Below, piece by piece: positions 46,042 to 60,968 of a stretch of 64,000 nt of DNA (positions are counted from its first letter, which is position 1; each line of letters starts with the position of its first letter). Source of the DNA: Halomonas sp. 1513 (lineage in GTDB: Bacteria > Pseudomonadota > Gammaproteobacteria > Pseudomonadales > Halomonadaceae); NCBI GenBank assembly GCA_001971685.1, contig CP019326.1:3286001-3350000 (forward strand), read 5' to 3'. The position numbers were made by a program, and so were the translations under genes. Under the pieces are notes generated by a model, which was not told the origin of the DNA, ran no database searches, and saw only the letters and a program-made list of their open reading frames with translations.

Positions 46042-48066
46042 TTAGCCGCTATTCGGCGAAGGCGTGGCCACCGCCTCACGACGGCTGGCCAGCCAGTTGC
46101 CGCCGATCGCCAGCGCCATCACCACCACCCCGACGATCTCGGCCATCAGGTTGGGGTAGAACACCGCCACGATGGACGGCACGATGGCCAGTCGCGGCAG
46201 CAGCGACATGCGCGTGAACAGGTAGCCCTCCAGCGCCGCGGCGAAGGCACAGAGCGCGAATATCGCGATCACCCCGTTCCAGATCACCACCGGTACCGGT
46301 CCGCCGACGATGATCTCCGGATTGAAGACCATGAACATCGGGATCAGGTAGAGGCCCTTGGCGAACTTCCAGGCCTGGAAGCCGGTCTCCATCGGCTTGG
46401 AGCCGGCGATCGCCGCCCCGGCAAAGCCGGCCAAGGCTATCGGTGGCGTGACGTTGGAGTCCTGGGAGTACCAGAACACCACCAGGTGGGCGATCAGCAG
46501 CGGCACGCCGAACTCGGCGGTCAGTGCCGGGCCGACCAGCACGATCAGCACGATATAGCTGGCGGTGACCGGCAGGCCCATGCCCAGGATCAGGCTGGCC
46601 AGCAGTACCATCACCAGCGCCAGCACCAGGTTGCCGCCGGAGAACGCCATCATCATCGACGAGAACTTGAGGCCCAGGCCGGTGAGGCCGACCACGCCGA
46701 CGATGATGCCGGCCACGGCACACGCCATGGACACCGCCACGGCATTACGCGCGCCAAGCTCGAGGCCTTCGACCAGCTTGATGAAGCCGGCGATCACCAC
46801 CCGCTTGATGCTCTCGAAGGTCACCGTCTGCCCCTGGCGCGGCGCCACGAACAGGAACCAGATCGCATAGCGCAGAACCGCCACGGCGACCATGGTCACC
46901 ACGGCATAGAAACCCACTCGCATCGGCGAAAGATTCATCACCAGCAGCCACACCAGCACGCCCAGCGGCAGCAGGAAGTGCCAGCCGTCGCGCATCACGT
47001 CGCGCATCTTGGGCAGCTCGCTGCGCGCCATGCCCTGCATGCCCTGCTTGAGTGCGATGATATGCACGAACAGGTAGACGGTGGCGAAGTACATGATCGC
47101 CGGCAGGATGCTGACCTTGACCACCTCGAGATAGGGGGTGTTGGTGTACTCGGCGATCAGGAAGGCGCCAGCGCCCATCAGCGGCGGCATGATCTGGCCG
47201 CCGGTGGAGGCCGCGGCCTCGATGCCGCCGGCCTGGTGCGGCTTGTAGCCGAGTCGCTTCATCAGCGGAATGGTGAAGGCGCCGGTGGTCACCACGTTGG
47301 CGATGGCGCTGCCGGAGATCGAGCCCATGCCCGCCGAGGCGATGACCGCCGCCTTGGCCGGCCCGCCGCGCTGGCGGCCGGTGGCCGCGTAGGCCATGTC
47401 GATGAAGAACTTGCCGGCGCCGGTGCTTTCGAGGAAGGCGCCGAACAGCACGAAGATGAAGATGTAGGTCGCCGCCACGCCCAGCGGCAGGCCGAAGATC
47501 CCCTCCTGGCCGAGATACAGCTGGCCGGCCACCCGCTCGAGGTTATAGCCGCGATGCTCGAGGATGCCCGGCATCCACTGGCCGAGCCACGGCAGCTCGC
47601 CGCGCGGCCCGGCGAAGGCGTAGACGATGGCCAGCAGGCCGATCAGCGTCATGCCGAAGCCCACCGCGCGACGGCTGGCCTCGAGGACGGTCACGGTGGC
47701 AATGCAGGCCACCAGGATATCCGTCTCGTTCCAGAAGCCGGCACGCGAGATGATGTCATCCAGGAAGAACAGGATATAGCCGCCGGTGACCACCGCCCCG
47801 GCAAAGAACACCGCATCGATCAGCCCGCCGATGATGCCGCGCTTGCGGTGGGGGCCGAAGGCCGGAAAGATCAAAAAGGCCAGCATCATGATCAGCGCCA
47901 GGTGAATCCCGCGCTGGTAGAACAGCCCCAGCGGCTGGATACCCGCCGAGTAGAGCTGAAACAGGGACAGCCCTACCGCCACGATAGTGATCAACCACAG
48001 TATCGCGCGCGGTTGGATGGCGTTGCCGCCCGGCATCTGCACCGGTGGGCTCGTCGAGTCGCTCAT
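46042..48066 (-). CDS. Fused TRAP permease (DctQM) of TAXI system
   Basis: 674 residues with about 16-18 membrane helices: a small DctQ-like N-terminus (residues ~20-180) fused to a DctM-like body with GQIMPPLMGAGAFLIAEYTN and ILGMGLPVTASYIVLIVLVG. This fused form is the usual one of TRAP-TAXI systems. Works with the TAXI binding protein two genes upstream. Glutamate, other organic acids or unknown ligands are possible. Confidence 0.92.
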   Translation of the reverse strand: MSDSTSPPVQMPGGNAIQPRAILWLITIVAVGLSLFQLYSAGIQPLGLFYQRGIHLALIMMLAFLIFPAFGPHRKRGIIGGLIDAVFFAGAVVTGGYILFFLDDIISRAGFWNETDILVACIATVTVLEASRRAVGFGMTLIGLLAIVYAFAGPRGELPWLGQWMPGILEHRGYNLERVAGQLYLGQEGIFGLPLGVAATYIFIFVLFGAFLESTGAGKFFIDMAYAATGRQRGGPAKAAVIASAGMGSISGSAIANVVTTGAFTIPLMKRLGYKPHQAGGIEAAASTGGQIMPPLMGAGAFLIAEYTNTPYLEVVKVSILPAIMYFATVYLFVHIIALKQGMQGMARSELPKMRDVMRDGWHFLLPLGVLVWLLVMNLSPMRVGFYAVVTMVAVAVLRYAIWFLFVAPRQGQTVTFESIKRVVIAGFIKLVEGLELGARNAVAVSMACAVAGIIVGVVGLTGLGLKFSSMMMAFSGGNLVLALVMVLLASLILGMGLPVTASYIVLIVLVGPALTAEFGVPLLIAHLVVFWYSQDSNVTPPIALAGFAGAAIAGSKPMETGFQAWKFAKGLYLIPMFMVFNPEIIVGGPVPVVIWNGVIAIFALCAFAAALEGYLFTRMSLLPRLAIVPSIVAVFYPNLMAEIVGVVVMALAIGGNWLASRREAVATPSPNSG

Positions 48067-48096
48067 GAATTCCTCGTCAGACGTCGTCTGGCTCGC

Positions 48097-48621
48097 TCAA
48101 TGCTCGAGCGTGATAAGTTGTAGGATGACCCGTTCACCGCTGGCTCGCTCGCTGAGGCTCAGGGTCTGCGTCTCACCGCCCACCTCCCAGATCAGGCGAT
48201 GATCGACCTCGCGGGAGCCGACCCGCAGTGCATAGCGGTTGTCGGCGACGGGCTCATGAATGTCATTGATCCAATAGCCGCCCTGGCCATCGGATACCTG
48301 TTCGCCGCGCCCCTGGGAGTGCCCCAGGCCGGCGGCAAAGTCGGGCTGATGACTGCGCTCCAACTGCATCTCGCCGGCCACGTTGCGGTAGCAGTCGAGG
48401 ACCGTGAAATGGCGCACCGAATGGTTCCAGCCCAGGCACCATCGCTCCCCCGGTGCCCGCGCCACCTCGGCGAGCACGCTGCCGTCCTGGCCTACCGCCT
48501 GCAAGACGGCGTCTGGACGCGCCGCATCATCGCCCAACGCTAATATGGGAGCGCTAAAACACAACAGCAGGGCGGACACCAGTGTCCGCCCTGCCAGGTT
48601 GCCGAATCTCACGATGTTCAT
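48097..48621 (-). CDS. DUF1850 protein of TRAP-TAXI operon
   Basis: 174 residues, N-terminal signal peptide (MNIVRFGNLAG then a hydrophobic run ending near ALG). LGWNHSVRHFTVLDCYRNV is typical of DUF1850 proteins, which are found between the binding-protein and permease genes of TRAP-TAXI operons and have no proven role. GTG 48627 is an alternative start. Likely periplasmic helper of the transporter. Confidence 0.82.
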   Translation of the reverse strand: MNIVRFGNLAGRTLVSALLLCFSAPILALGDDAARPDAVLQAVGQDGSVLAEVARAPGERWCLGWNHSVRHFTVLDCYRNVAGEMQLERSHQPDFAAGLGHSQGRGEQVSDGQGGYWINDIHEPVADNRYALRVGSREVDHRLIWEVGGETQTLSLSERASGERVILQLITLEH

Positions 48622-48652
48622 CGTCACATCGCTGGATCGCGCCGCGTTACCG

Positions 48653-49612
48653 TTACGGACGCAGACGATCCGGGATGTCGGCGTCGACTTCCTCGAAATA
48701 GCGAATCGCGCCCGGATGCAGCGGCACCGGGGTGGATTCCATGGTGAACTCGATGGTGGTGTCGTTGGCCGCCGGATGCACCGCGATCAGCTCATCGGTG
48801 TGCTCGAACAGCAGCTTGGTCAGCTGGTAGGCGAGCTCTTCGTCCATGTCGGAATTGACCACCAGGACGTTGGGGATACCGATGGTCTGGACCGCTTCAT
48901 CCATGCCGTCGTACATGCCCGCCTCGAGCTCGTAAGGCGCAAACACCGGCTCGACTTCCTGGGCGTTGGCGATCTCCTCGTCGGAGAAACCGATCAGGCG
49001 AATGTCGCGGGTTGCCGCCAGGTTGAGGATCGAGCTGGTGGGCGGGCCCACGCTCCAGAAACCGGCGTCGATGTCACCGTCGCGAATGGCGTCGGCGGTC
49101 TCGTTGAAGTTGAGACGCTGGGGACGGAAGTCGTCGTAGCTCATGCCGTTGGCTTCGATCAGGGCGCGAGCGTTGAGCTCGGTACCGCTGCCCGGGGCAC
49201 CCACGGAGACACGCTTGCCTTCCAGGTCGGCCAGCGACTCGATGTCGGAGTCGGCCAGGGTCACCAGCTGCACGGCATTAGGATAGACCGACGCCAGGGC
49301 GCGCGTGTTCTCGATCTGGCGGCCTTCGAAATCGCCGGTACCGTTGTAGGCCTGGTAGACGGTATCCGCCAGGGCCAGGGCCAGGTCGGCATCGCCGCGC
49401 ATGATCAGGCCCATGTTCTCCACCGAGGCGCCGGTAACTTCGGCCGTGGCGCTGGCACCTTCGATATGGTCGTTGATCATCTCGGCAAAGCCGCCGCCGA
49501 TCGGGTAGTAGACCCCGCCGGTACCGCCGGTGGCGATGGACAGCTGCTGGGCGGCTGCCAGCGGGGCAGTGGCCAGCAGTGATGCGGCAACCGCATATTT
49601 GATAGTGCGCAT
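48653..49612 (-). CDS. TAXI-family TRAP binding protein
   Basis: 319 residues from ATG 49612 (GGAGGA upstream). Signal peptide MRTIKYAVAASLLATAPLAA; the mature start LSIATGGTGGVYYPIGGGFA is the family signature. It captures a solute in the periplasm for the fused permease. First gene of the TAXI operon. Confidence 0.92.
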   Translation of the reverse strand: MRTIKYAVAASLLATAPLAAAQQLSIATGGTGGVYYPIGGGFAEMINDHIEGASATAEVTGASVENMGLIMRGDADLALALADTVYQAYNGTGDFEGRQIENTRALASVYPNAVQLVTLADSDIESLADLEGKRVSVGAPGSGTELNARALIEANGMSYDDFRPQRLNFNETADAIRDGDIDAGFWSVGPPTSSILNLAATRDIRLIGFSDEEIANAQEVEPVFAPYELEAGMYDGMDEAVQTIGIPNVLVVNSDMDEELAYQLTKLLFEHTDELIAVHPAANDTTIEFTMESTPVPLHPGAIRYFEEVDADIPDRLRP

Positions 49613-49775
49613 GGACTTCCTCCGGTCGTGAAACCTGACGTTCGTTATGATTGTTGGCGACCCGCCGCGCATGTGAACCGGGGGCCGCACTCCTGAAAAA
49701 CCTAGCACGTCAGTAGCCTGAGTGACTACAACGACAATTTCACCATTGCCGAGCACGGCGGGATATGCTCGCCAT

Positions 49776-50315
49776 TCAACGCTCGCCGCTGAGCCAGGTC
49801 GGGGCCAGCTCGTGCTGGCCGCGACCATCGGTGACATATAGCGTGCCTTCGCTGATCATCACCGCCCAGTCGATGCTGCGCGGCAGCTCCTCGGCCAGCG
49901 CCGCCAGCGGCGCCGCCGGCAGGCTGGCCACGTGCACGTTGGCCAGCGACTCGGCCGTGGCCAGCACCTTTGAGGCCCAGGCGTCGACCTTGCCGTAGGC
50001 CAGCAGCGAGACCCGCTCGGCGCGGCGCGAGCACCAGGTCAGGCGGTCGGCGTCGGGCAGGCCGACCTCGATCCAGTGCAGCACCCGACCGTCGAGGCTC
50101 TTCTGCCACAGCGCCGGCTCGTCGACGTCCGACAGGCCGCGGCCGAAGGCCAGCGCCTCGTCGTACCACAGCGCGTGCGCCAGCAGCCTCACCGTCATGC
50201 GCGTCTCGGTCTCCGAGGGGTGGCGCGCCACGGTAAAGCGCTCGGTGGCATAGACGCCGCGGTCGAGATCGGTGAGCGACAGGGTCACTTTATAAGGGGT
50301 TGCGCTAAGCGCCAT
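49776..50315 (-). CDS. yaeQ: YaeQ family protein
   Basis: 179 residues aligning with E. coli YaeQ (MALSATPYKVTLSLTDLDRG, ETETRMTVRLLAHALW, GLPDADRLTWCSRRA). The family has a PD-(D/E)XK-like fold and an unproven function. Single gene, divergent from the small HTH gene across 164 bases. Confidence 0.88.
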   Translation of the reverse strand: MALSATPYKVTLSLTDLDRGVYATERFTVARHPSETETRMTVRLLAHALWYDEALAFGRGLSDVDEPALWQKSLDGRVLHWIEVGLPDADRLTWCSRRAERVSLLAYGKVDAWASKVLATAESLANVHVASLPAAPLAALAEELPRSIDWAVMISEGTLYVTDGRGQHELAPTWLSGER

Positions 50316-50479: not shown

Positions 50480-50749
50480 ATGAGCACGGCACGATTAACG
50501 ACCGGTTGGGACCTGCGTGAGCCTTCGCCAGCGACACCCGACCTGGACGTCCGGGAACTCGAGAAGCGTTCCCGCCTGATGCGCGTCGTCACTCGCCGCA
50601 TCGCCCTATCCGACCTGCCTAACCGCGAGATTGCCCAGCGCGCCGGCATCCCCACGCAGCGCCTCAGCGACCTGCTGGCCGGCAAGATCGAGCACTTTTC
50701 CGTCGAAGAACTGGAAACCCTGCGCCATAGCGTCGAAGACGAAAGCTAG
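50480..50749 (+). CDS. Small XRE-type HTH protein
   Basis: 89 residues. A helix-turn-helix of the HigA/XRE type is visible at ~45-80 (NREIAQRAGIPTQRLSDLLA); the first 30 residues are unstructured-looking. No toxin gene is adjacent. Its stop codon touches the ATG of the FAD oxidoreductase gene (TAG then ATG), so the two are co-expressed. It may regulate the selenium genes to the right, or be an orphan antitoxin-like regulator. Confidence 0.75.
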   Translation: MSTARLTTGWDLREPSPATPDLDVRELEKRSRLMRVVTRRIALSDLPNREIAQRAGIPTQRLSDLLAGKIEHFSVEELETLRHSVEDES

Positions 50750-51898
50750 ATGGCCCGCGAGCTGGTGCTGGTGGGGGGAGGCCATAGCCACGTCGAGGTG
50801 CTGCGCCGCTTTGCGCTGGCCCCCGCCCTCGACGTACGCCTGACCCTGATCAGCCGCGACCGCTTCACGCCCTACGCCGGCATGCTGCCCGGCTATCTCG
50901 CCGGGCACTACGACTTCGACGACGCGCATATCGACCTGGCGCCGCTGGCCGAGGCCGCCGGCGCGCGCTTCCTGCGCGACAGCATCGACGGCCTCGACCT
51001 CGCCGCCCAGCGGGTGATTCCCCACGACCACTCGCCGCTCACCTACGACCGCCTGTCGCTGAATATCGGTGCCACACCGCGCCTGGCGACGGTACCCGGT
51101 GCCGCCGACCACGCCACGCCGCTCAAGCCCATCGACGGGCTCAATGCGCGCTGGCTGGCGCTGCTCGAGCGGCTGCAGCACGACCCGGTCAGCAAGACCA
51201 TCATGGTGGTGGGTGGCGGCGTCGGCGGCGTCGAGATGCTGCTGGCCATGCAGCAGCGTCTGCAGCGCCTGTGCCGTGAGCGCGGTCTGGATGAGGATCT
51301 GCTGCGTTTCTGCCTGGTGACCCGCGGCCCGCGGCTGCTGCCCGGCCACAATGCGCGGGTGAGGCGACGCTTTACCCGCCTGCTGACGCGCCGCGGCGTG
51401 ACGCTGCACAGCGATGCCGAGGTGGTCAGCGTCGGCGCCGGATGCATCCACATCGCCGACGGCCGCCGGCTGGTCTTCGATGAACTGCTGTGGGCGACGC
51501 AGGCCGGTGCCGCGCCGTGGCTGGCCAGCACTGGCCTCGACCTCGACGCCGAGGGTTTCATCCGCGTCGACGACCACCTGGCCAGCGTCAGCCATCCCCA
51601 CGTGTTCGCCGCCGGCGACACCGCCTCGATGATCAACTACCGCCGCGACAAGCCCGCGGTTAACGCCGTGCGTCAGGGCCCTGCGCTGGCCGACAACCTG
51701 CGCGCCAGCCTTCACGACCGCCCCCTGACCCGCTACCGCCCCCAGCGCCGCCACCTGGCGCTGATCAGCACCGGCGACCGCTACGCCGTCGCCTGCCGCG
51801 GCCCCTGGAGCTGGTCCGGCGCCTGGGTGTGGCGCTGGAAGGATCGCAGCGACCGCCGCTTCATGGCCCGCTACCGCCCGCCGCTGGCAGCGCCATGA
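50750..51898 (+). CDS. Stand-alone NDH-2-like FAD/NAD oxidoreductase, paralogue of SelD fusion domain
   Basis: 382 residues. FAD site ELVLVGGGHSHVEVLRRFA, NAD site IMVVGGGVGGVEML, and HVFAAGDTASM near the end. It is plainly a paralogue of the first ~400 residues of the SelD fusion 1.1 kb away (shared TPYxGMLPGYxAGHY and WVWRWKD tail) and ends exactly where that protein enters its SelD part. No redox-active CxxC was seen. It could oxidise or reduce a selenium compound or quinone; unproven. Convergent with egtD, 22 bases apart. Confidence 0.85.
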   Translation: MARELVLVGGGHSHVEVLRRFALAPALDVRLTLISRDRFTPYAGMLPGYLAGHYDFDDAHIDLAPLAEAAGARFLRDSIDGLDLAAQRVIPHDHSPLTYDRLSLNIGATPRLATVPGAADHATPLKPIDGLNARWLALLERLQHDPVSKTIMVVGGGVGGVEMLLAMQQRLQRLCRERGLDEDLLRFCLVTRGPRLLPGHNARVRRRFTRLLTRRGVTLHSDAEVVSVGAGCIHIADGRRLVFDELLWATQAGAAPWLASTGLDLDAEGFIRVDDHLASVSHPHVFAAGDTASMINYRRDKPAVNAVRQGPALADNLRASLHDRPLTRYRPQRRHLALISTGDRYAVACRGPWSWSGAWVWRWKDRSDRRFMARYRPPLAAP

Positions 51899-51920
51899 AA
51901 GACGTCCGGCCATAGGCGAG

Positions 51921-52883
51921 CTAGTCGTTGGATAGATAGTGCACGCTGAACAGGCCCTCGGCGTCGCGCCAGACCGCGCTCGGCCGATACCCCGCTCGCC
52001 GTGCCAACGCCTGGAAGCCCGCCACGCTGTATTTACAGGAGTTCTCGGTGTGCAGCGTCTCGCCCGGTTCGAACTCGAAGCGGTGATCCTCGAGGACGAG
52101 CGTCTGCCGGCACTCGCTGACCAGGTGCATCTCGATGCGCGAGGCCGCCTCGTTGAAGAAGGCCCGATGGCGGAAGCTGCCAGGCTCTACCTTGGCCCCC
52201 AGTTCCCGGCGCATGCGCTCCAGCAGGTTGAGGTTGAAGGCCGCCGTCACACCGGCGGCATCGTTGTAGGCCGCCTCGAGGAGGTCGCTATCCTTGACCA
52301 GGTCGACGCCGATCAGCACCCCGCTGCCGTGGGGCAGGGCCCGGCGCAGCGCGGCGAGGAAGGCCTCGGCCTCGGCCGGCGCGAAGTTGCCGATGCTCGA
52401 GCCGGGAAAGAAGGCCACCACCCGTCGCCCCTCGACACCCGACGGCAAGCGCAGGCGCGCCGAAAAGTCCGCCCAGGCGGCATGCACCTCCAGCCAGGGG
52501 TAGTCGGCCGCCAGGCGGCGGGTGCTCTGCAGCAGGAAATCCCGAGAGATATCCACCCCCAGGTAGCGCGTCGGGCGCATCGCCTCGAGCAGCAGGCGCA
52601 CCTTGCGGCTGGCGCCGCTGCCCAGTTCGACCAGCAGCGACTCCGGCCCGACCAGCGCCGCGATCTCCTCGGCGGCCTCGGCGAGGATGCTCTCCTCGGT
52701 GCGGGTCAGGTAGTACTCGGGCTGGCGGCAGATCGATTCGAACAGCAGGGATCCCTGCTCATCGTAGAAATACTTGGGCGACAAGGCCTTGGGAGAGCGG
52801 CCCAGCCCGGCGATCACGTCGTCGCGAAACGACGGCCCCGTCTCGTCGACATGCTGGTCGTGAAAACGCACTGCAGTGGACAT
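51921..52883 (-). CDS. egtD: L-histidine N-alpha-methyltransferase (hercynine synthesis)
   Basis: 320 residues from ATG 52883; the frame runs further upstream but without family similarity. SAM-binding VELGSGASRKVRLLLEA, then VVAFFPGSSIGNF, and HTENSCKYSVAGF which carries the histidine-binding Glu and Ser of EgtD. It makes hercynine (trimethyl-histidine), the precursor of ergothioneine and selenoneine. It is divergent from the SelD fusion across 135 bases and close to senB and senA, which use its product. Confidence 0.92.
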   Translation of the reverse strand: MSTAVRFHDQHVDETGPSFRDDVIAGLGRSPKALSPKYFYDEQGSLLFESICRQPEYYLTRTEESILAEAAEEIAALVGPESLLVELGSGASRKVRLLLEAMRPTRYLGVDISRDFLLQSTRRLAADYPWLEVHAAWADFSARLRLPSGVEGRRVVAFFPGSSIGNFAPAEAEAFLAALRRALPHGSGVLIGVDLVKDSDLLEAAYNDAAGVTAAFNLNLLERMRRELGAKVEPGSFRHRAFFNEAASRIEMHLVSECRQTLVLEDHRFEFEPGETLHTENSCKYSVAGFQALARRAGYRPSAVWRDAEGLFSVHYLSND

Positions 52884-53018
52884 CGCTTGGCCTCGCTGGC
52901 GAACGGTGCTGGCAGGGTTCGACAATACGCCGATCTGCGGGATGGCGTCGTACCATCGATTTGCCTTTAGACTGTGGCGGCAACGTCGACGTCTCATCAA
53001 TCTAGAGCGAGCCTGACC

Positions 53019-55349
53019 ATGCAGCAACCGCAGCAGTCCCTGGGGTTACAAGCGTTACGGGATATCGTCCTGGTTGGCGGCGGACACACCCACGTGGGGG
53101 TGTTGAAGCGCTTCGCCATGAAACCCGAACCCGGCGTCAGGCTCACCGTGATCTGCCGCGACACCCATACCCCCTACTCGGGCATGCTGCCGGGCTATGT
53201 GGCCGGGCACTACAGCTATGACGACGTGCATATCGACCTGCGCCGCCTGGCGGAGTACGCCGGGGCACGCTTCTTCCGCGACGAGGCCATCGGCATCGAC
53301 CACGAGGCCCAGACCGTCCTCTGCCGCTCGCGCCCGCCGGTGCCCTACGACTGGATGTCGATCAATATCGGCTCGACCCCCAGCGTGAATTCGGTCAGCG
53401 GTGCCGGCGAGCATGCGGTGCCGGTCAAGCCGATCCACCAGTTCAACGACCGCTGGCAGAGCCTGCTCGAACGTCTCTCGCACCCACACACCGGGCAGCA
53501 CCCGGACCAGACCCGCGTCGCGGTGGTCGGCGGCGGCGCTGGCGGCGTCGAGCTGCTGCTGGCCATGCAGTACCGGCTGAGCAACGAACTCAGCGCCCAG
53601 GCCCGCGACCCGAGTGAACTGCGCTTCTCCCTCTTCACCCGTGGCACGCAGATCCTGCCGACCCACAATCCCCGAGTGCGCGCTCACTTCCAGGCCACCC
53701 TCAAGCAGCGCGGCGTCGAGGTGCACACCGCCACCGACGTGGTCGGTGTCGAGGCGGGCCGGCTGCAGACCGCCGACGGCAACTGGCACGCCGCCGACGA
53801 GATCGTCTGGGTCACCAATGCCGGCGGCGCCGCCTGGCTGCGCGACACCCACCTGGCACTCGACGACGACGGCTTCATCCAGGTCGGCGACACCCTGCAG
53901 TCGCTCTCCGACCCACGCATCTTCGCCGCCGGCGATATCGCCAGCCAGGTCGACCATCCCCGCGAGAAGGCCGGGGTCTTCGCCGTGCGGCAAGGGCGCC
54001 CGCTGGCCGACAACCTGCGCGCCGCCGTGACCGGCCGCGCCCTGTCGCCCTACCGCCCCCAGGCGCAATGGCTGGCGCTGATCAGCACCGGCGACCGTCA
54101 TGCCGTGGCCTCCCGCGGCGGCCTCTTTCTCGCCGGTGACTGGGTGTGGCGCTGGAAGGACGGCATCGATCGGCGTTTCATGTCCAAGTTCAACGACTTG
54201 CCGCCGATGGAGGAAGGCGCCATGCGGGCGCCCCGGGCCAGCCGCGTGGCGCTGAACGAGGAGGAGAGCGCCCAGGCGATCTCGGCCATCGCCATGCGCT
54301 GCGGCGGCTGTGGTGCCAAGGTCGGCGCCTCGGTGCTCTCCCGGGCCCTCTCGACCCTGCAGCCGGTGGAGCGGGACGAGGTGCTGGTGGGCCTTCACGC
54401 CCCGGACGATGCCGCCGTGGTACGGGTACCGCCGGGCAAGGACGTGGTGCATACCGTCGACTTCTTCCGCGCCTTCATCGACGACCCCTATGTGTTCGGC
54501 AAGGTCGCCGCCAATCACGCCCTGGGCGACATCTTCGCCATGGGCGCCGAGGCCCAGACCGCCACCGCCGTGGCCACGGTGCCCCAGGGGCTCGAGGCCA
54601 AGGTCGAGGACACCGTCTACCAGATGATGCGCGGTGCCGTTGAGGTGCTCAACGAGGCCGGCTGCGCCCTGGTCGGCGGGCACACCGGCGAGGGCAGCGA
54701 GCTGGCCCTGGGGTTTGCCGTCAACGGCCTGATCGACGCCGGTGGAGCGAGCGACAGCCCCAAGGGGAAAGCGATCCTGACGAAAGGCGGCCTGCGCCCG
54801 GGCCAGGTGCTGATCCTGACCAAGCCCATCGGCACCGGCACCCTGTTCGCCGCCCATGCCCGGCTCGGCGCCCGGGGGCGCTGGATCGACGCCGCCCTGG
54901 AGAGCATGTGCCAGTCCAACCGCCAGGGGGCGAGCTGCCTCCGCGAACACGGCGCCACCGCCTGTACCGACCTCACCGGTTTCGGCCTGCTGGGGCACCT
55001 GGTGGAGATGACGCGCCCTTCCGGGGTGGATGCCGAACTCGACCTGACGGCGCTGCCGCTGCTCGAGGGCGCCGAGGAGACCGTCGCCGCCGGTATCCTG
55101 AGCTCGCTGCAACCCGCCAACGTGCGCCTGCGCCGTGCCATCCACGACCAGGCCGCCTGGGTCGACCACCCCCGCTATCCGCTGCTGTTCGACCCCCAGA
55201 CCGCCGGCGGCCTGCTGGCCAGCGTGCCCGCCGAGCGCGCCGAGGCCTGCCTCGCGGCCCTGCACGCCCTGGGCTACGCCAGGGCCGCCATCATCGGCCA
55301 CGTCCTCGAGGCCGGCGAAGCGCTGGAACCCATCCACCTGAAGGGTTGA
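53019..55349 (+). CDS. selD: FAD-oxidoreductase / selenide, water dikinase fusion (selenophosphate synthase)
   Basis: 776 residues from ATG 53019. Residues ~14-405 form an NDH-2-like FAD/NAD oxidoreductase (GGGHTHVGVLKRF; VAVVGGGAGGVELL; IFAAGDIASQ). Residues ~420-770 are SelD: C428-G-G-C431-G-A-K434, where C431 and K434 match the catalytic Cys17 and Lys20 of E. coli SelD, then DDAAVVRVPPGKD, NHALGDIFAMGAEAQT and GGHTGEGSELALGFAVNG. It makes selenophosphate from selenide and ATP; the fused domain may supply or guard the selenide. In this cluster it plays the SenC part. The fused form is known in several proteobacteria. Confidence 0.93.
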   Translation: MQQPQQSLGLQALRDIVLVGGGHTHVGVLKRFAMKPEPGVRLTVICRDTHTPYSGMLPGYVAGHYSYDDVHIDLRRLAEYAGARFFRDEAIGIDHEAQTVLCRSRPPVPYDWMSINIGSTPSVNSVSGAGEHAVPVKPIHQFNDRWQSLLERLSHPHTGQHPDQTRVAVVGGGAGGVELLLAMQYRLSNELSAQARDPSELRFSLFTRGTQILPTHNPRVRAHFQATLKQRGVEVHTATDVVGVEAGRLQTADGNWHAADEIVWVTNAGGAAWLRDTHLALDDDGFIQVGDTLQSLSDPRIFAAGDIASQVDHPREKAGVFAVRQGRPLADNLRAAVTGRALSPYRPQAQWLALISTGDRHAVASRGGLFLAGDWVWRWKDGIDRRFMSKFNDLPPMEEGAMRAPRASRVALNEEESAQAISAIAMRCGGCGAKVGASVLSRALSTLQPVERDEVLVGLHAPDDAAVVRVPPGKDVVHTVDFFRAFIDDPYVFGKVAANHALGDIFAMGAEAQTATAVATVPQGLEAKVEDTVYQMMRGAVEVLNEAGCALVGGHTGEGSELALGFAVNGLIDAGGASDSPKGKAILTKGGLRPGQVLILTKPIGTGTLFAAHARLGARGRWIDAALESMCQSNRQGASCLREHGATACTDLTGFGLLGHLVEMTRPSGVDAELDLTALPLLEGAEETVAAGILSSLQPANVRLRRAIHDQAAWVDHPRYPLLFDPQTAGGLLASVPAERAEACLAALHALGYARAAIIGHVLEAGEALEPIHLKG

Positions 55350-55357
55350 GGGCGAGA

Positions 55358-56350
55358 TTAAAGCGTCAGCCCGCAGGCGGCGATGACTCGCGCCAGCGCC
55401 TCCCGCTCGGCCGCGGGGCTGAACAGTGGTGCCCGCACCAGCACCTGCTGGCGGAGCCGGTCGACGAAGGCCGGTTCGGCCTCTGCTCGGCACAACAGGG
55501 CCCTCAGGGCCGCGGTGTCGGCCACCGGGAAGTAGCCGGCGTAGTCGTCGCCCAGCAGCCCGCGGTTTCCGGGGATATCGGAGGCCACCACCGGCAGGCC
55601 GGCCACGCAGGCCTCGCTGACCACATTGGCGCCCCCTTCCATGCGCGAGCTGATCACCATCAGCCGTGCCCGGGCCATCCACTGACGCACCCGCCAACGG
55701 GGCAGGTCGCCGAGCCAGCGGTAACGCGCATTGCAGGCCATCTCCTCGCGGGCGGCCTCGGCCCACTCCGGGCGGTGGGCGCCACCGAGTTGCACCACGC
55801 ACAACCGCGACGTCGATGGCAGCTCGTGCACGGCCAGGGCCGCACGCAGCGAATCCTTCTCCTCGCGCAGGTGGCCGGCGACCAGCACCTCGAAACGGCG
55901 ACGGATGGGTCCCGGGGCACGGGGCGGCAGTGGCAGGGCCGACTGGTGGACGACATGCAGGCGCGACAGGAAGCGCGGCGGCAGATCCTCGGCCAGGCAG
56001 TCATGCAGGCCGATCAAGGCATCGCTGGCGGCGAGGCTGTCGAGAAACGCCTCCGGGTCGCTGTGCTGGAAGCGGTAGACGTCGGTTCCGGTCAGCACCA
56101 CCACCAGCGGGCATGCCGGAAAAGCGGCGCGACAGGCGCGAATGGCGGCGTGGCTGCGCACCGCATGCAGCGCCAGCACCAGGTCGGGAGGCTGGCCGTC
56201 CAGGCGGCAGCCATCGGCGTCCCCGTCGGATTGTGCAACGCGCACGCGACAGCCCAGGTCGTGCAGCAGCCCCGCCCAGCGGGTGGCCGTGGTCCGGTTG
56301 CCGGCATGAGAGCCTCGACGCGCCGGCGTGATCAGCGCTACCTTCAACAC
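55358..56350 (-). CDS. senB: SenB-type selenosugar synthase (GT-B glycosyltransferase)
   Basis: 330 residues from GTG 56350, with an AGGGAG site eight bases upstream inside the tandem repeat. N-terminus KVALITPARRGSHAGNRTTA and the central RMEGGANVVSEACVAGLPVV (nucleotide-sugar site of GT-B enzymes) match the SenB group, which joins selenophosphate to a UDP-sugar to make a selenosugar. It is the only glycosyltransferase in the window and converges with the selD stop (8 bases), making the two a tail-to-tail pair. The match to SenB rests on context plus motifs recalled, not on a search. Confidence 0.85.
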   Translation of the reverse strand: MLKVALITPARRGSHAGNRTTATRWAGLLHDLGCRVRVAQSDGDADGCRLDGQPPDLVLALHAVRSHAAIRACRAAFPACPLVVVLTGTDVYRFQHSDPEAFLDSLAASDALIGLHDCLAEDLPPRFLSRLHVVHQSALPLPPRAPGPIRRRFEVLVAGHLREEKDSLRAALAVHELPSTSRLCVVQLGGAHRPEWAEAAREEMACNARYRWLGDLPRWRVRQWMARARLMVISSRMEGGANVVSEACVAGLPVVASDIPGNRGLLGDDYAGYFPVADTAALRALLCRAEAEPAFVDRLRQQVLVRAPLFSPAAEREALARVIAACGLTL

Positions 56351-56402
56351 TATCTCGACTCCCTATCTCGACTACTTAGCTCGACTCCCTATCCTTGCTC
56401 CC
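56351..56402. repeat. 13-bp tandem repeat between senB and senA
   Basis: Four consecutive 13-base units: TATCTCGACTCCC, TATCTCGACTACT, TAGCTCGACTCCC, TATCCTTGCTCCC. They begin at the base before the senB start codon and end 28 bases before senA, so they form the senB leader and the divergent promoter spacer. The 9-mer ATCTCGACT recurs at 57858-57866, 28 bases before the start of the selenate-type binding-protein gene. Confidence 0.75.
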
Positions 56403-56430
56403 TGAGCGCTCCACTCTCGACGAGGTCGGC

Positions 56431-57780
56431 ATGCTCTCCACACCACTCAGCACACCGCCTACGCCACCCCGGCCCGCCGTCGAGCTGGCGGCGATGCTCA
56501 CCGACGCGCGGACGCGCAGCCTGGCGCTGATGCAGGACACCCTGGAGGCCCGCGAACTCGGCCCGCGGCTGGCGATCGTCAATCCACCGCTGTGGGAGCT
56601 GGGCCACCTGGGCTACTTCCACGACCATTTCGCCCTGCGCGGCCTCTTTGGCCTGCCCGACTACCAGCTCGCCGATGCCGAGCGACTGTTCGATTCCAGC
56701 AGCATCGCCCATGACGACCGTTGGTCGCTACCGCTTCCGTCACGGGAGCAGACCCTGGCGTATCTGTCGCGGGTCCAGCAGGCCATGCTCGAACGCCTGC
56801 CCGACGGCGAGGCCAGCCCGGCCCAGAGCTATGTCTACCAGCTCACCACCCTGCACGAGGACATGCACGGCGAGGCCTTCCTCTACACCCGCCAGACCCT
56901 TGGCGACCCGGCCCCCGACCTGGGCACGCCACCGCCGGGGTTCGCCCCTGGCGAGCCCGCTGCCGGTGCGCTGCCCGGCGACGTCGCCATCCCCGGCGGC
57001 CGCCACCTGCTGGGCTCCGATGAAAGCGTTCCCTTCCGGTTCGACAATGAGAAGGCGCCCCTGGAAGTCCAAGTGGCGCCCTTCTCGATCGCCAAGGCGC
57101 CGGTGACCAACGCCGAGTTCGCCGCCTTCGTCGACGACGGCGGCTATGCACGACGAGAACTGTGGAGCGAGGCCGGCTGGCGCTGGTGCGAAAAACAGGG
57201 CCTGCGGGCACCCGTCTACTGGCGCAAGGGCGCCAACGGCCGCTGGGAGGAGCGACGCTTCGACCGCTGGTTGCCGCTGGCCCCCCATCAGCCGGTGGTG
57301 CATGTGAGCTGGTTCGAGGCCGAGGCCTGGTGTCGCTGGGCCGGTCGTCGCCTGCCCAGCGAAGCCGAATGGGAGGTTGCCGCCAGCCGCGAGCCAACAC
57401 CCGACGGGGCCTCGCTCGCCCCCGGCAAGCGTCGCTTCCCCTGGGGCGACACGCCGCCGGATGCCCGGCTGGCCAATCTGGACGGCTGGCGCCTGGCGTC
57501 GCTGGACGTGGCGGCACTGCCCGACGGCGACAGCGCCTTCGGCTGCCGACAGATGCTGGGCAACGTCTGGGAGTGGACGGCCTCGCCCTTCGGCCCCTTC
57601 CCGGGCTTCGAGCCCGAGCTGTACCGCGACTACTCGGCGCCCTGGTTCAAGGAGGGCCGCTACGTGCTGCGCGGCGGGGCCTGGGCCACCCGGGGGCGGC
57701 TGATCCATAACGGCTACCGTAATTTCTTCACCCCGGAGCGCCAGGACATCCTGGCGGGGTTTCGTACCTGCGCGCTCTAA
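56431..57780 (+). CDS. senA: SenA/EgtB-family non-heme iron selenoneine synthase
   Basis: 449 residues from ATG 56431 (GAGG five bases upstream). N-terminal DinB-like domain holds the iron ligands H59 (ELGH), H142 and H146 (LHEDMHGE); the 83-residue spacing from first to second His equals that in EgtB. The C-terminal FGE-sulfatase-type domain runs from ~185 with VHVSWFEAEAWCRWAGRRLP and ends in GFRTCAL. EgtB joins hercynine to gamma-glutamylcysteine or cysteine; SenA joins hercynine to selenosugar. With senB and selD adjacent, SenA is favoured; EgtB function cannot be excluded by motifs alone. Confidence 0.88.
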   Translation: MLSTPLSTPPTPPRPAVELAAMLTDARTRSLALMQDTLEARELGPRLAIVNPPLWELGHLGYFHDHFALRGLFGLPDYQLADAERLFDSSSIAHDDRWSLPLPSREQTLAYLSRVQQAMLERLPDGEASPAQSYVYQLTTLHEDMHGEAFLYTRQTLGDPAPDLGTPPPGFAPGEPAAGALPGDVAIPGGRHLLGSDESVPFRFDNEKAPLEVQVAPFSIAKAPVTNAEFAAFVDDGGYARRELWSEAGWRWCEKQGLRAPVYWRKGANGRWEERRFDRWLPLAPHQPVVHVSWFEAEAWCRWAGRRLPSEAEWEVAASREPTPDGASLAPGKRRFPWGDTPPDARLANLDGWRLASLDVAALPDGDSAFGCRQMLGNVWEWTASPFGPFPGFEPELYRDYSAPWFKEGRYVLRGGAWATRGRLIHNGYRNFFTPERQDILAGFRTCAL

Positions 57781-57893
57781 GAGGAGATAGCCCTGGGATT
57801 TTCGGTATCATGGCCCGTTCCGGTTACCCAGGCTCTATGCTCTAGAAGCCAAGATAATCTCGACTGGCCACTCCCCCACAAGGACGCCCTGAC

Positions 57894-58760
57894 ATGTTCC
57901 GACGCCTGCTGCCTGCTCTTGCGCTTGTCACACTCATCACGCCTTCCCTGGCCGCCGCCCAGACCCTGGTGTTCACCGCCATCCCCGACGAGGATGAGAC
58001 ACGCCTGCAGCAGCGCTTCCAGGCCGTCGCCGACTACCTCGCCGAGACGCTGGAGGTGGAGGTCCGCTTCATTCCGGTAACCTCCTATGCCGCCTCGGTC
58101 ACCGCCTTTCGCAACAACCAGGTGCAGCTGGCCTGGTTCGGCGGCTTCACCGGCGTGCAGGCACGCCAGTTGGTGCCGGGCTCTCGCGCCATCGCGCAGG
58201 GCGTGGAGGACCCCGAGTACAAGAGCTACTTCATCGCCAACCAGCAGACCGGACTCGAACCGCACGGCGGCGACACCGCCCCCGAGGGCCTGCGCGACCT
58301 GACCTTCAGCTTCGGCTCCCAGAGCTCGACCTCCGGGCGGCTGATGCCGGAGTACTTCCTGCGCGAGCACCTCGGCGCCTCGCCCGACGAGCTGTTTACC
58401 CGGGTCGGCTTCAGCGGCAACCACAGCCGTACCATCTCGGTGGTGCAGTCCGGCGCCTACCAGGCCGGCGTGGTCAGCTACAAGGCGTGGGAGAACGAGC
58501 TCGAAGCGGGCAACATCGACCTCGACCGGGTTCAGGTGATCTGGGAGACGCCGCCCTACCCCGACTACCAGTGGACGGTGCGTGGCGACGTCGATGAGCG
58601 CTTCGGCGAGGGCTTCACCGAGCGCCTCCAGCAGGCCCTGCTCGACATGGATGACCCCGACCTGCTGGCCAGCTTTCCCCGCGCAGGCTTCATCCCTGCC
58701 GTGAACGACGACTACCGGGAAATCCTCGAGGTCGCGCAGTCCCTGGGGCTGCTCGACTGA
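57894..58760 (+). CDS. PhnD-like binding protein of putative selenate/oxyanion ABC importer
   Basis: 288 residues, Sec signal ending near AAAQ. Mature PhnD-like fold with LVFTAIPDEDE at the start, QLAWFGGFTGVQAR, and FSFGSQSSTSGRLMPEYFL with the serine/threonine loop that binds an oxyanion in PhnD proteins. This type is found beside selenium genes in several bacteria and annotated as putative selenate binding protein. It overlaps the ATPase gene by one base (TGATG). Ligand (selenate, selenite or phosphonate) is inferred from context. Confidence 0.85.
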   Translation: MFRRLLPALALVTLITPSLAAAQTLVFTAIPDEDETRLQQRFQAVADYLAETLEVEVRFIPVTSYAASVTAFRNNQVQLAWFGGFTGVQARQLVPGSRAIAQGVEDPEYKSYFIANQQTGLEPHGGDTAPEGLRDLTFSFGSQSSTSGRLMPEYFLREHLGASPDELFTRVGFSGNHSRTISVVQSGAYQAGVVSYKAWENELEAGNIDLDRVQVIWETPPYPDYQWTVRGDVDERFGEGFTERLQQALLDMDDPDLLASFPRAGFIPAVNDDYREILEVAQSLGLLD

Positions 58761-59413
58761 TGACCTTGCTGGCGCTGCAGGATGCCGTCGCCACCTATGG
58801 CGAGGTGCGCGTGCTCGGCCCACTGAGCCTGACGCTGGCACCCGGCGAACGCGTGGCGCTGGTGGGTCGCAGCGGTGCCGGCAAGTCGACGCTGCTGTCG
58901 GTGATGTATGACCGTTGGCGCGACCAGGGGGCCGCCCTGATGCCCCAGGACCTGGGTCTCGTGACGACACTCTCGGTATTCCACAATGTCTACATGGGCC
59001 GGCTCGACCGCCACCCCTGGTGGCGCAACCTGCTGACCCTGGTGCGCCCACGGCCAGCCGACGTGACGGAGATCGACACCCTGCTCGGCCGGCTCGGCCT
59101 GGACGACAAGCGCTGGACACCCTGCGGCGAACTCTCCGGCGGGCAACGCCAGCGCGTTGCCGCGGCGCGGGTCATCCATCAGGGCGGCGGCATGCTGCTC
59201 GCCGACGAGCCCGTCTCGGCACTCGACGGCCCGCTCTCCGAGGTGACCCTGACCGCGCTGACCGACGCCTACCCCACCGCGGTGCTGGCCATGCACGACG
59301 TGGACCTGGCACTGCGCTACTGCACCCGGGTGATCGGCATCCAGGATGGCGCCATCGCCATCGACCAGCCCAGCCAGCGCCTCTCCGCCACCGACCTGCT
59401 GCCGCTCTACTGA
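58760..59413 (+). CDS. ABC importer ATPase (PhnC-like)
   Basis: 217 residues, at the short end for the family. Walker A GRSGAGKST near residue 37, signature [13 protein letters not shown], Walker B MLLADEPVSALD, H-loop VLAMHDVDLAL. Starts and stops in TGATG junctions, so the three genes are tightly coupled. Powers the fused permease that follows. Confidence 0.9.
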   Translation: MTLLALQDAVATYGEVRVLGPLSLTLAPGERVALVGRSGAGKSTLLSVMYDRWRDQGAALMPQDLGLVTTLSVFHNVYMGRLDRHPWWRNLLTLVRPRPADVTEIDTLLGRLGLDDKRWTPCGELSGGQRQRVAAARVIHQGGGMLLADEPVSALDGPLSEVTLTALTDAYPTAVLAMHDVDLALRYCTRVIGIQDGAIAIDQPSQRLSATDLLPLY

Positions 59414-60885
59414 TGCCGTTGACCGCCACGCGTCGCGTTACCCTGGGGCTGGTCCTGCTGGCGGCGGTGTGCCTGCTGTTCGGCGACTTCGAGATCAGCA
59501 CCCACGACCCCTGGCACGCGCTGGGCCGCCTGTTCATGGGGCTGATCCAGCCCGACCTCTCGCGCGTCGACTTCCTCGGCGAGGCCCTGCTGCGAACCGT
59601 GGCCTTCGCCTTCGTCGGCGTGGGGCTCGGCTCGGCGGCGGGCATGCTGCTGGCCCTGCTCTTCCGGCATGTCTGGGTGCGCACCTTCTGCGCCTTTATC
59701 CGCGCCATCCACGAACTGTTCTGGGCGCTGATCTTCCTGCAGAGCTTCGGCCTGCACCCGATCACCGGGGTACTGGCCATCGCCATTCCCTACGCCGGCA
59801 CCTTCGCCAAGGTCTATGCCGAGATCCTCGACGAGTGCGACCCACAGCCGGAACGCAGCCTGCCACAGCGCGCCGGGCGGCTATCGGCGCTGGTCTATAC
59901 CCGCATCAGCCAGGCCTGGCCGCACCTGGTCAGCTATACCGCCTACCGCCTCGAGTGCGGCCTGCGCTCCAGCGCGGTGATCGGCTTCGTCGGCATGCCG
60001 ACCCTGGGCTTTCACCTGGCAGGCGCCTTCGCCCAGGGCCACTACGGCACGGTGGGCGCACTGCTGCTGCTCTTCTACGCCCTGATCGCCAGCCTGCGGC
60101 TATGGGCGCGGCCACGGCTGCTGCCCCTCTACCTGGTGGCCTCCCCCTTCCTGCTGGGTACCGGGCTGCCGATCGTGTGGAGCAACGTCTCGCGCTTCTT
60201 CACCGAGGACATCGTGCCCGCCCCGCTGCGCAACGGCGAGGGCCTGGAGGGCCTGTGGCCCTGGTTCGGCGACCTCCTGCTCGGCCAGGCCCTGCCCGGC
60301 ATCTGGCACACCCTGCTGCTGACCCAGATCGCCCTGGTACTCACCGGGGTGCTGGCGATGACGCTGTTCCCGCTGATCTCGCGCCACTTCACCGGGCGCC
60401 TGGGCGGCACCGCCGGTCATGTGCTGCTGGTGGTCATGCGTTCGACGCCGGAGTATCTGCTGGCCTTTATCCTGCTGCAGCTGTGGGGGCCCTCGATGCT
60501 GCCGGCGGTGGTCGCCCTGGCGCTGCACAACGGCGGCATCATCGGCCACCTGGTCGGACGCCGCAGCAACGAGATCCACCTGCGCCAGGACGCCCCGGGC
60601 GGCATCAACCGCTACGCCTACGAGGTGGCGCCGCGGGTCTACGGCCCCTTCCTGGCGCTGCTCTTCTACCGCTGGGAGATCATCATGCGCGAGACGGCGA
60701 TACTCGGGATTCTCGGCATCGCCACCCTGGGTTTCTACGTCGACAGCGCCATCCAGGAGCTGCGCTTCGACCGCGCCATGCTGCTGATCCTGATCACCGC
60801 GCTGCTCAACATCGCGGTGGATATCCTCGCCCGCCGACTGCGCGCCCACCTGCGCCTTAGCCACACCGCCCGTAGCGAGCCGTAG
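59413..60885 (+). CDS. Fused duplicated ABC permease (two PhnE-like halves)
   Basis: 490 residues with about twelve membrane helices. Two permease halves are visible, each with a PhnE-type coupling region: one near 195-200 (RLECGLRSSAVIGFVGMPTL) and one near 430 (YRWEIIMRETAILGILGIAT). A fused pair would serve as the whole channel, so no second permease is needed. Last gene of the selenium importer, followed by a strong terminator. Confidence 0.88.
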   Translation: MPLTATRRVTLGLVLLAAVCLLFGDFEISTHDPWHALGRLFMGLIQPDLSRVDFLGEALLRTVAFAFVGVGLGSAAGMLLALLFRHVWVRTFCAFIRAIHELFWALIFLQSFGLHPITGVLAIAIPYAGTFAKVYAEILDECDPQPERSLPQRAGRLSALVYTRISQAWPHLVSYTAYRLECGLRSSAVIGFVGMPTLGFHLAGAFAQGHYGTVGALLLLFYALIASLRLWARPRLLPLYLVASPFLLGTGLPIVWSNVSRFFTEDIVPAPLRNGEGLEGLWPWFGDLLLGQALPGIWHTLLLTQIALVLTGVLAMTLFPLISRHFTGRLGGTAGHVLLVVMRSTPEYLLAFILLQLWGPSMLPAVVALALHNGGIIGHLVGRRSNEIHLRQDAPGGINRYAYEVAPRVYGPFLALLFYRWEIIMRETAILGILGIATLGFYVDSAIQELRFDRAMLLILITALLNIAVDILARRLRAHLRLSHTARSEP

Positions 60886-60909
60886 CCGACTCGTCCCCGA
60901 AGGACAAAC

Positions 60910-60935
60910 GCCCCCGCCGGGTGACCGGCGGGGGC
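60910..60935. terminator. Bidirectional Rho-independent terminator
   Basis: Perfect 11-bp stem GCCCCCGCCGG with CCGGCGGGGGC around GTGA, between the convergent permease and ilvD genes. Confidence 0.8.
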
Positions 60936-60968
60936 GCTGTCGGATGATACCTTCCAGCAGGCGGGCGT

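Follow-up and report, generated by a model that had tools for sequence, protein, structure and literature searches.

How did a set of genes predicted to make a selenium metabolite come to stand beside an importer that could feed it, and what does that importer carry? A locus of the salt-loving bacterium Halomonas sp. 1513 raises both questions. It lies in a 64,000-nucleotide stretch of DNA (G000:C1:3,286,001-3,350,000; hereafter the window) from a single-contig 4.13-Mb genome and encodes, in order, a helix-turn-helix (HTH) protein, a standalone flavin adenine dinucleotide (FAD) protein, EgtD, a FAD-SelD fusion, SenB, SenA, and the binding protein, ATPase and permease of an importer (Table 1). 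Our analysis makes it likely that this locus is a horizontally acquired selenoneine cassette equipped with its own selenium importer. As the original prediction had held, EgtD, the SelD fusion, SenB and SenA lie within 6 kb (51,921-57,780, i.e. 5.9 kb) and pass the curated cut-offs against which NCBIfam scores were judged throughout (Pfam scores likewise for HTH_37 and ABC_tran), and a PhnD-like importer follows them, its genes running to 60,885. The pathway had also rightly been recognized as the known senABC route; selenoneine synthesis being known, the locus is a good example of it and not a new pathway.

Family membership, key residues and gene linkage, each of which is observed directly, are consistent with a route whose enzymatic activities we infer as follows. 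The importer would bring selenium in as an inorganic oxyanion, most likely selenite, and the FAD/NAD(P)H enzyme, that is, the domain fused to SelD, perhaps aided by the resident standalone copy, would supply selenium as selenide or keep it in that form. The SelD domain would then make selenophosphate, and SenB would place selenium on a uridine diphosphate (UDP)-sugar to give a selenosugar. EgtD would trimethylate histidine to hercynine, which SenA would join to the selenosugar with oxygen, and the resulting selenoxide would break down and be reduced to the antioxidant selenoneine, these last steps of selenoxide elimination and reduction following PMC10702425.

The assignment of SenA needed care, because the nearest solved chains are OvsA (8ux5, 327 bits) and EgtB (270 bits), followed by the selenoneine synthase SenA (256 bits). 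We therefore turned to a maximum-likelihood tree of 92 sequences, comprising the window protein, three PDB fragments (OvsA, EgtB and SenA), 81 locus proteins and seven protein-search matches, rooted on EgtB and with support given as Shimodaira-Hasegawa-like approximate likelihood ratio test (SH-aLRT)/ultrafast bootstrap. Here, 76 Se-type proteins, the window SenA among them, separate from 16 EgtB proteins (82/89), and the window SenA falls outside a firm OvsA clade of 11 (100/100). Its own clade of 63 members is weakly supported (33/48), and the characterised Variovorax paradoxus SenA, likewise of the Se-type group but present as a fragment that lacks the middle of the protein, branches before the window clade and OvsA together (96/90); along with the OvsA entry as best PDB match, both points weigh against a SenA identity. 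Scores against other models fall below their cut-offs: 319 bits for EgtB, under the cut-off of 360, and, for OvoA, where the comparison is with the family model only, 139 bits (cut-off 400).

The active-site residues suggested by the prediction as a check give a sharper picture. The window SenA carries H58, H141 and H145 as iron ligands, M144 at the donor position and Y400/N430/F431 at the acceptor, where the roles (a Se-type donor, a hercynine-type acceptor) are presumed. The M144 site, beside the third iron ligand, is Met in 63/63 window-clade proteins, 10/10 OvsA-clade proteins and V. paradoxus SenA, and Gln in 15/15 Halomonadaceae EgtB proteins and 4x8b. Conversely, sites 400/430/431 read Y/N/F in the window, V. 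paradoxus SenA and 15/15 EgtB proteins, and M/Q/A in all ten OvsA-clade proteins. Of the 63 window-clade proteins, 60 keep Y400; site 430 is Asn in 57 and Thr in 4, and site 431 is Phe in 37 and Tyr in 24, the remainder being gaps or X. The window enzyme thus shares with EgtB of the ergothioneine route its fold family, iron ligands and hercynine-type acceptor residues and differs from it at M144; with OvsA (8u41, 8ux5) it shares the iron ligands and M144, as well as linked SenB and FAD-SelD genes in loci such as L015, and differs in the acceptor residues. Across these sequences the residues separate SenA from OvsA more clearly than the tree does.

The distribution of EgtD agrees with the SenA residues, so that the expected product is selenoneine. 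The window EgtD is the sole EgtD-model match in this genome (E <= 1e-30), the EgtB model matches SenA only, and no EgtB was found in the genome at E <= 1e-40. EgtD is present in 4/4 Halomonadaceae genomes with this SenA type, in 1/7 OvsA-clade genomes and in 0/4 same-genus genomes without this SenA; it is linked in 19/53 window-clade loci, many of which end at contig edges. Among 61 Halomonadaceae genomes, EgtB exceeds its cut-off in 21 and the SenA type occurs in 4, with none carrying both, and in this sample the ergothioneine and selenoneine routes look mutually exclusive.

SenB and the fusion fit the same route. N18, T21, K165 and E238 of the window SenB are invariant with the named residues N20, T23, K158 and E231 of V. 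paradoxus SenB, and the fused SelD retains the Cys and Lys of its GCGAK stretch. Together with the family cut-offs and the SenA residues, this upholds the predicted selenoneine cluster at the level of sequence. Elsewhere the genome has a second, orthodox SelD (418 bits, cut-off 125), whose neighbour is a tRNA 2-selenouridine synthase (321 bits, cut-off 220), and the fused SelD is therefore an additional copy tied to the sen cluster. A FAD domain joined to SelD is the most common SelD fusion according to PMC4561486; like NADH dehydrogenase-like/SelD fusions in general, the window protein has an N-terminal FAD domain on a Cys-type SelD, but unlike them it is tied to SenA, SenB and EgtD. The V. 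paradoxus senABC cluster shares with the window the SenA and SenB families, SelD/SenC and the predicted product; the FAD-SelD fusion, the alternating strands and the linked EgtD and importer appear to set the window apart from that cluster.

A comparison with relatives sheds light on how the cassette arrived. Four same-genus genomes carry, between YaeQ and IlvD, the HTH, FAD, binding protein, ATPase and permease genes, all in one direction; EgtD, SelD, SenB and SenA were not found at this site in any of the four, nor was any EgtD or any EgtB-type or SenA-type match found genome-wide, and each has one orthodox SelD. In the window, the four sen genes sit between the FAD gene and the importer. 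The mosaic is directly visible in a profile of DNA identity to relatives in 300-base bins. At 44.0-51.8 kb and 61.1-64 kb the best identities come mostly from the same-genus genomes (74-97%, usually >84%), whereas across the 30 bins of 51,801-60,800 Billgrantia montanilacus (L005) reaches 87-99%, with 26/30 bins at 94% or more, and H. alkalisoli (L009) is similar. The importer DNA of the same-genus genomes is only 77-93% identical to that of the window, and their IlvD proteins are 94-97% identical, compared with 90% for B. montanilacus. As 51.9-60.8 kb matches Billgrantia and the flanks mostly match the genus, the sen genes and the importer appear to have arrived together. The simplest reading would be that a donor stretch carrying both replaced a resident importer; the junctions would lie near 51.9 and 60.9 kb, and we infer a Billgrantia-type donor. 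Against this, H. alkalisoli reaches 96% in one flank bin, so that the same genus is not always best there. A whole selenometabolite pathway, with hercynine supply and importer, would thus apparently have moved between genera in one step.

Two alternatives bear on this picture. In one, the enzyme that forms the C-Se bond would be an OvsA that uses histidine, an ovoselenol-type synthase with ovoselenol or a relative as product. Beyond the best PDB match, this alternative draws on the behaviour of the NCBIfam SenA model, which also passes 6/7 OvsA-clade proteins (L148-L154, Marinobacter-type, >420 bits) despite their M/Q/A acceptor residues; the model cut-off therefore cannot separate SenA from OvsA, and SenA calls need a residue check. 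The PDB match itself loses force because 8ux5, unlike 8u41, carries the SenA/EgtB-type Y/N/F, which raises its score. With the window protein outside the OvsA clade, Y/N/F at its acceptor sites and EgtD within the cluster, we rejected the OvsA identity suggested by the PDB match on the tree and acceptor residues, and consider an ovoselenol product most improbable. Hardly more probable is an ancestral origin, by which the genus had the cassette from the start and its four other species have lost it. Other genera do carry HTH-EgtD-SelD-SenB-SenA-importer at the same YaeQ/IlvD site (L014, L181 and L182, the first two of which seem to be one and the same genome), but the cassette DNA is nearer to Billgrantia-type DNA than the neighbouring genes are, and the importer proteins are 75-91% identical to the window's in the four relatives and 95-97% in B. 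montanilacus. We note separately that the two OvsA entries 8ux5 and 8u41 differ at three sites, and that 8ux5 looks like an engineered variant.

The extra FAD protein, which had been counted as part of this version of the pathway, turns out not to belong to the cassette. The standalone protein is 85-90% identical in the four same-genus genomes, which carry it without sen genes, and only 55% identical to the SelD-fused domain, its best match beyond the genus reaching 59%. Nine of the ten nearest named loci (L005-L014) have a single FAD copy, the fused one, although L008 covers only 4.6 kb; L010, ended by a contig edge, has no FAD copy in view. By these comparisons the standalone gene is an untouched resident of the genus that lies outside the sen cassette, and a role as a dedicated selenoneine enzyme is unsupported. 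The two commonest Cys columns of the FAD family (150/185 and 111/185 rows) are Pro and Ser in the standalone copy and its five closest relatives, which led us to discard a mechanism based on cysteines for this protein. Both cysteines are present in the fused copy, and the two FAD copies may therefore differ in job. The nearest solved relatives of the FAD enzyme are NDH-2-like. Because the domain is fused to SelD, and in the four relatives also directly precedes the importer, a role between uptake and selenophosphate is a natural guess, and supply of selenide may be one form of it.

The importer, in turn, belongs to a family that follows selenium use. We sampled 244 genomes drawn from one order, in which TIGR04553, SenB and SelD exceed their cut-offs in 66 (20 families by row count), 13 and 143 genomes, respectively. 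All 13 SenB genomes have TIGR04553, and TIGR04553 is accompanied by SelD in 66/66 genomes and absent from all 101 SelD-less ones (Fisher p about 1e-19, ignoring relatedness; with each of the 20 families counted once, 0.586 to the 20th power, about 2e-5). As a control, SelD is present in 22/46 genomes with sub-cut-off PhnD-like matches only and in 55/132 without any match. The TIGR04553 gene lies within 5 kb of SelD in 40/66 genomes and within 10 kb in 41/66; in the others SelD is distant on the same contig (8) or is on another contig or not among the SelD matches listed (17). In a phylum-wide draw of 398 genomes, 34 were TIGR04553-positive, and we examined all 17 positive loci new to the survey: SelD lies within about 10 kb in 6/13 outside the order and 2/4 inside it, two loci ending at contig edges. 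Four of these loci (L188, L192, L199, L200) pair TIGR04553 with SelD-SelU neighbours and have no sen genes, and two (L184, L187) are sen clusters with an orthodox-type SelD. As far as tested, the importer thus follows selenium use in general, and NCBIfam already gives TIGR04553 a selenium-related name (selenate).

What the importer carries is approached through its binding site. The closest solved relatives of the binding protein are the PhnD1 proteins of Synechococcus (239 bits) and Prochlorococcus (209 bits), and their sequences (7S6G, 5LQ5) themselves pass TIGR04553 (335 and 301 bits, cut-off 250). The window protein is 45% identical to Synechococcus PhnD1 over 258 columns and shares D11, Y44, S124, T125, S126, H156, D203 and Y204 with picocyanobacterial PhnD1, but has Ser for N174 and Tyr at the F90 site, as do five Halomonas-type relatives. 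Among 67 distinct relatives, D11, Y44, S124, T125, S126, H156 and Y204 (PhnD1 numbering) are invariant; at site 203, 57 have Asp and 10 have Asn, and Ser takes the place of T65 in 54 and Gly that of S123 in 50. Prochlorococcus PtxB has Gln at site 203. Like phosphite, selenite has a pyramidal shape, and as it is in part protonated near neutral pH, it should fit a binding site that offers an acceptor Asp; selenate is unprotonated at such pH. We therefore consider selenite, rather than selenate, the most likely cargo, as judged from the residues. The label 'selenate type' reflects the family's name, which is the database's guess; the binding site argues for selenite.

The PhnD1 proteins themselves, part of a "phosphonate" transporter of ocean cyanobacteria, pose a puzzle. 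PMC10284923 reports that PhnD1 binds phosphite at 0.05-4.3 uM and phosphate at 7-182 uM, that WH8102 and MITS9220 cannot grow on phosphite, and that the system is not induced by phosphate starvation; its authors conclude that the system is a constitutive phosphate transporter. Neither of the two PhnD1 papers contains the string 'selen' in its main text. Phosphite binding as mimicry of selenite would explain both binding without growth on phosphite and the lack of induction by phosphate starvation, and PhnD1 may then be a selenium importer. PMC1273633 describes Prochlorococcus and Synechococcus SelD as carrying a 320-residue NADH-dehydrogenase-like extension and cyanobacteria as having ybbB, and the extended SelD, as described, resembles the window fusion. 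We posit, at about even chances of being right, that TIGR04553 systems, picocyanobacterial phnD1C1E1 included, are dedicated selenite importers with a phosphite-shaped site that pass selenium to a TIGR03169 FAD/NAD(P)H enzyme and then to SelD, for selenouridine, selenoneine or ovoselenol.

Several observations tell against selenium as the cargo, and some of them lend weight to an importer of phosphate or phosphite, whose selenium-gene neighbourhood would be historical. The solved relatives have been measured with phosphorus ligands only, PhnD1 proteins of this very family bind phosphite and phosphate, and phosphate sits in the 7S6G crystal (PMC10284923). According to the same source, phnD1 is present in all 97 Cyanorak strains and the neighbour of picocyanobacterial phnDCE is tesA, not selD, whereas the window importer adjoins a selD-bearing sen cluster. 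Phosphite selectivity is attributed, in PMC5700983, partly to a P-H...pi contact with the capping tyrosine, where selenite would place its lone pair, which calls for caution. Three Prochlorococcus genomes are listed in PMC5029168 as having SelD without known use. What speaks against phosphorus is the company the family keeps: SelD in every genome that has it, the protein in none of the SelD-less genomes, a position within 5 kb of SelD in most, and no SelD bias among other PhnD-like matches (22/46). On balance we regard a phosphorus importer as a serious but less probable explanation. Selenate, for which the NCBIfam name speaks, seems unlikely: the site holds an acceptor Asp that has been described with phosphate bound, kept in 57 of the 67 relatives and replaced by Asn in 10, and selenate, unprotonated, would be disfavoured as sulphate is. 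Selenite uptake remains our preferred reading.

The layout, by contrast with what had been predicted, is not peculiar to this genome. The best 80 of at least 577 confirmed SenB loci include 60 with SenA, 68 with SelD, 62 with the FAD-SelD fusion, 43 with the binding protein and 20 with EgtD; for the 46 that are flanked on each side by 7 kb or more, the counts are 33 for SenA, 43 for SelD, 34 for the binding protein and 15 for EgtD. Of the 60 loci with SenA, 55 have it divergent from SenB and no more than 400 bp away; of the 68 with SelD, 51 have it tail-to-tail with SenB and no more than 300 bp away. The alternating strands are therefore real but not unusual, and the fused SelD and linked importer, present as described, are likewise common in the lineage. 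SenA is not nearby in 13/46 of the loci with long flanks. A third selenometabolite in these clusters was considered and, for most of them, dropped, since 12 of the 13 genomes have a SenA-family match elsewhere (E <= 1e-30), 9 of them over the cut-off; seven such matches fall in the OvsA clade, and one metagenome-assembled genome (G251) has no SenA-family match at E <= 1e-30. Five loci without nearby SenA (L042, L052, L057, L075, L078) have a recurring neighbour set in which, by eye, one protein resembles a molybdopterin hydroxylase and another an amidohydrolase, and might represent a selenium-dependent hydroxylase context.

Five points appear to be new here: how the cassette was transferred, that the resident FAD gene stands apart from it, the link to SelD as counted against a control, the residues that tell SenA from OvsA when the database model does not, and the tie to the PhnD1 puzzle; we found no prior account of these points in the literature searched, which did not extend to the founding papers (Nature 2022, Nat Chem 2024). 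According to a 2026 review (PMC13188914), a specific transport system with high affinity for selenium has yet to be identified in prokaryotes, and the TIGR04553 family is a candidate for one. Purified proteins and crystals of cyanobacterial members exist, and, if the proposal is true, a transporter in all Cyanorak picocyanobacteria would shift from a phosphorus to a selenium system.

Table 1. Features of the locus, in window coordinates; scores are in bits, with curated cut-offs.
Feature	Coordinates	Strand	Evidence
Small HTH_37 protein, 89 aa	50480..50749	+	Pfam HTH_37 39, cut-off 27
Standalone FAD/NAD(P) protein, TIGR03169 family	50750..51898	+	457, cut-off 310
EgtD, predicted histidine trimethyltransferase	51921..52883	-	TIGR03438 404, cut-off 291
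FAD domain fused to SelD (SenC role), predicted selenophosphate synthesis	52974..55349	+	TIGR03169 512 (cut-off 310), TIGR00476 292 (cut-off 125)
SenB, predicted selenosugar synthase	55358..56350	-	TIGR04348 386, cut-off 300
SenA, predicted selenoneine synthase	56434..57780	+	NF041186 514, cut-off 420
Periplasmic binding protein, TIGR04553	57894..58760	+	394, cut-off 250
Importer ATPase (ATP-binding cassette transporter)	58760..59413	+	Pfam ABC_tran 76, cut-off 25
Importer permease, two PhnE-like halves in one chain	59413..60885	+	PhnE model 210 in two stretches, cut-off 217
Probable transferred stretch, Billgrantia-type donor	51899..60800	.	300-bp identity bins; ends approximate

Some smaller features complete the description. 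The importer ATPase falls under the PhnC cut-off (143 vs 266), and the permease, of about 490 residues, is narrowly under that of PhnE; its halves are 23% identical over 182 aa, and aligned lengths are 459-495 in 42 SenB loci. Close protein matches are Halomonas-type, at 96% for SenA (Halomonas sp. ANAO-440) and 96% for SenB (H. chromatireducens). The HTH_37 protein, a possible regulator, is 98-99% identical in the four same-genus genomes and, like the standalone FAD gene, resident in the genus. No promoter-like sites were found at the locus, terminator-like sites were not in excess (3 observed vs 2.4 expected), and Rfam and tRNA/tmRNA scans of the window at default thresholds gave no match. 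Adjoining the island at 46042-49837 are genes for a fused TRAP permease, a small protein and a TAXI-type binding protein, which are common to same-genus genomes and apparently unrelated to selenium. A strong GC-rich hairpin (60905-60945) lies between the converging permease and ilvD ends, close to the presumed right junction. Finally, the gap between the senB and senA starts (56350-56393) holds a 13-bp unit repeated 3.4 times, which is probably a variable repeat, since it is present in B. montanilacus, shorter in H. alkalisoli and not seen in other relatives.

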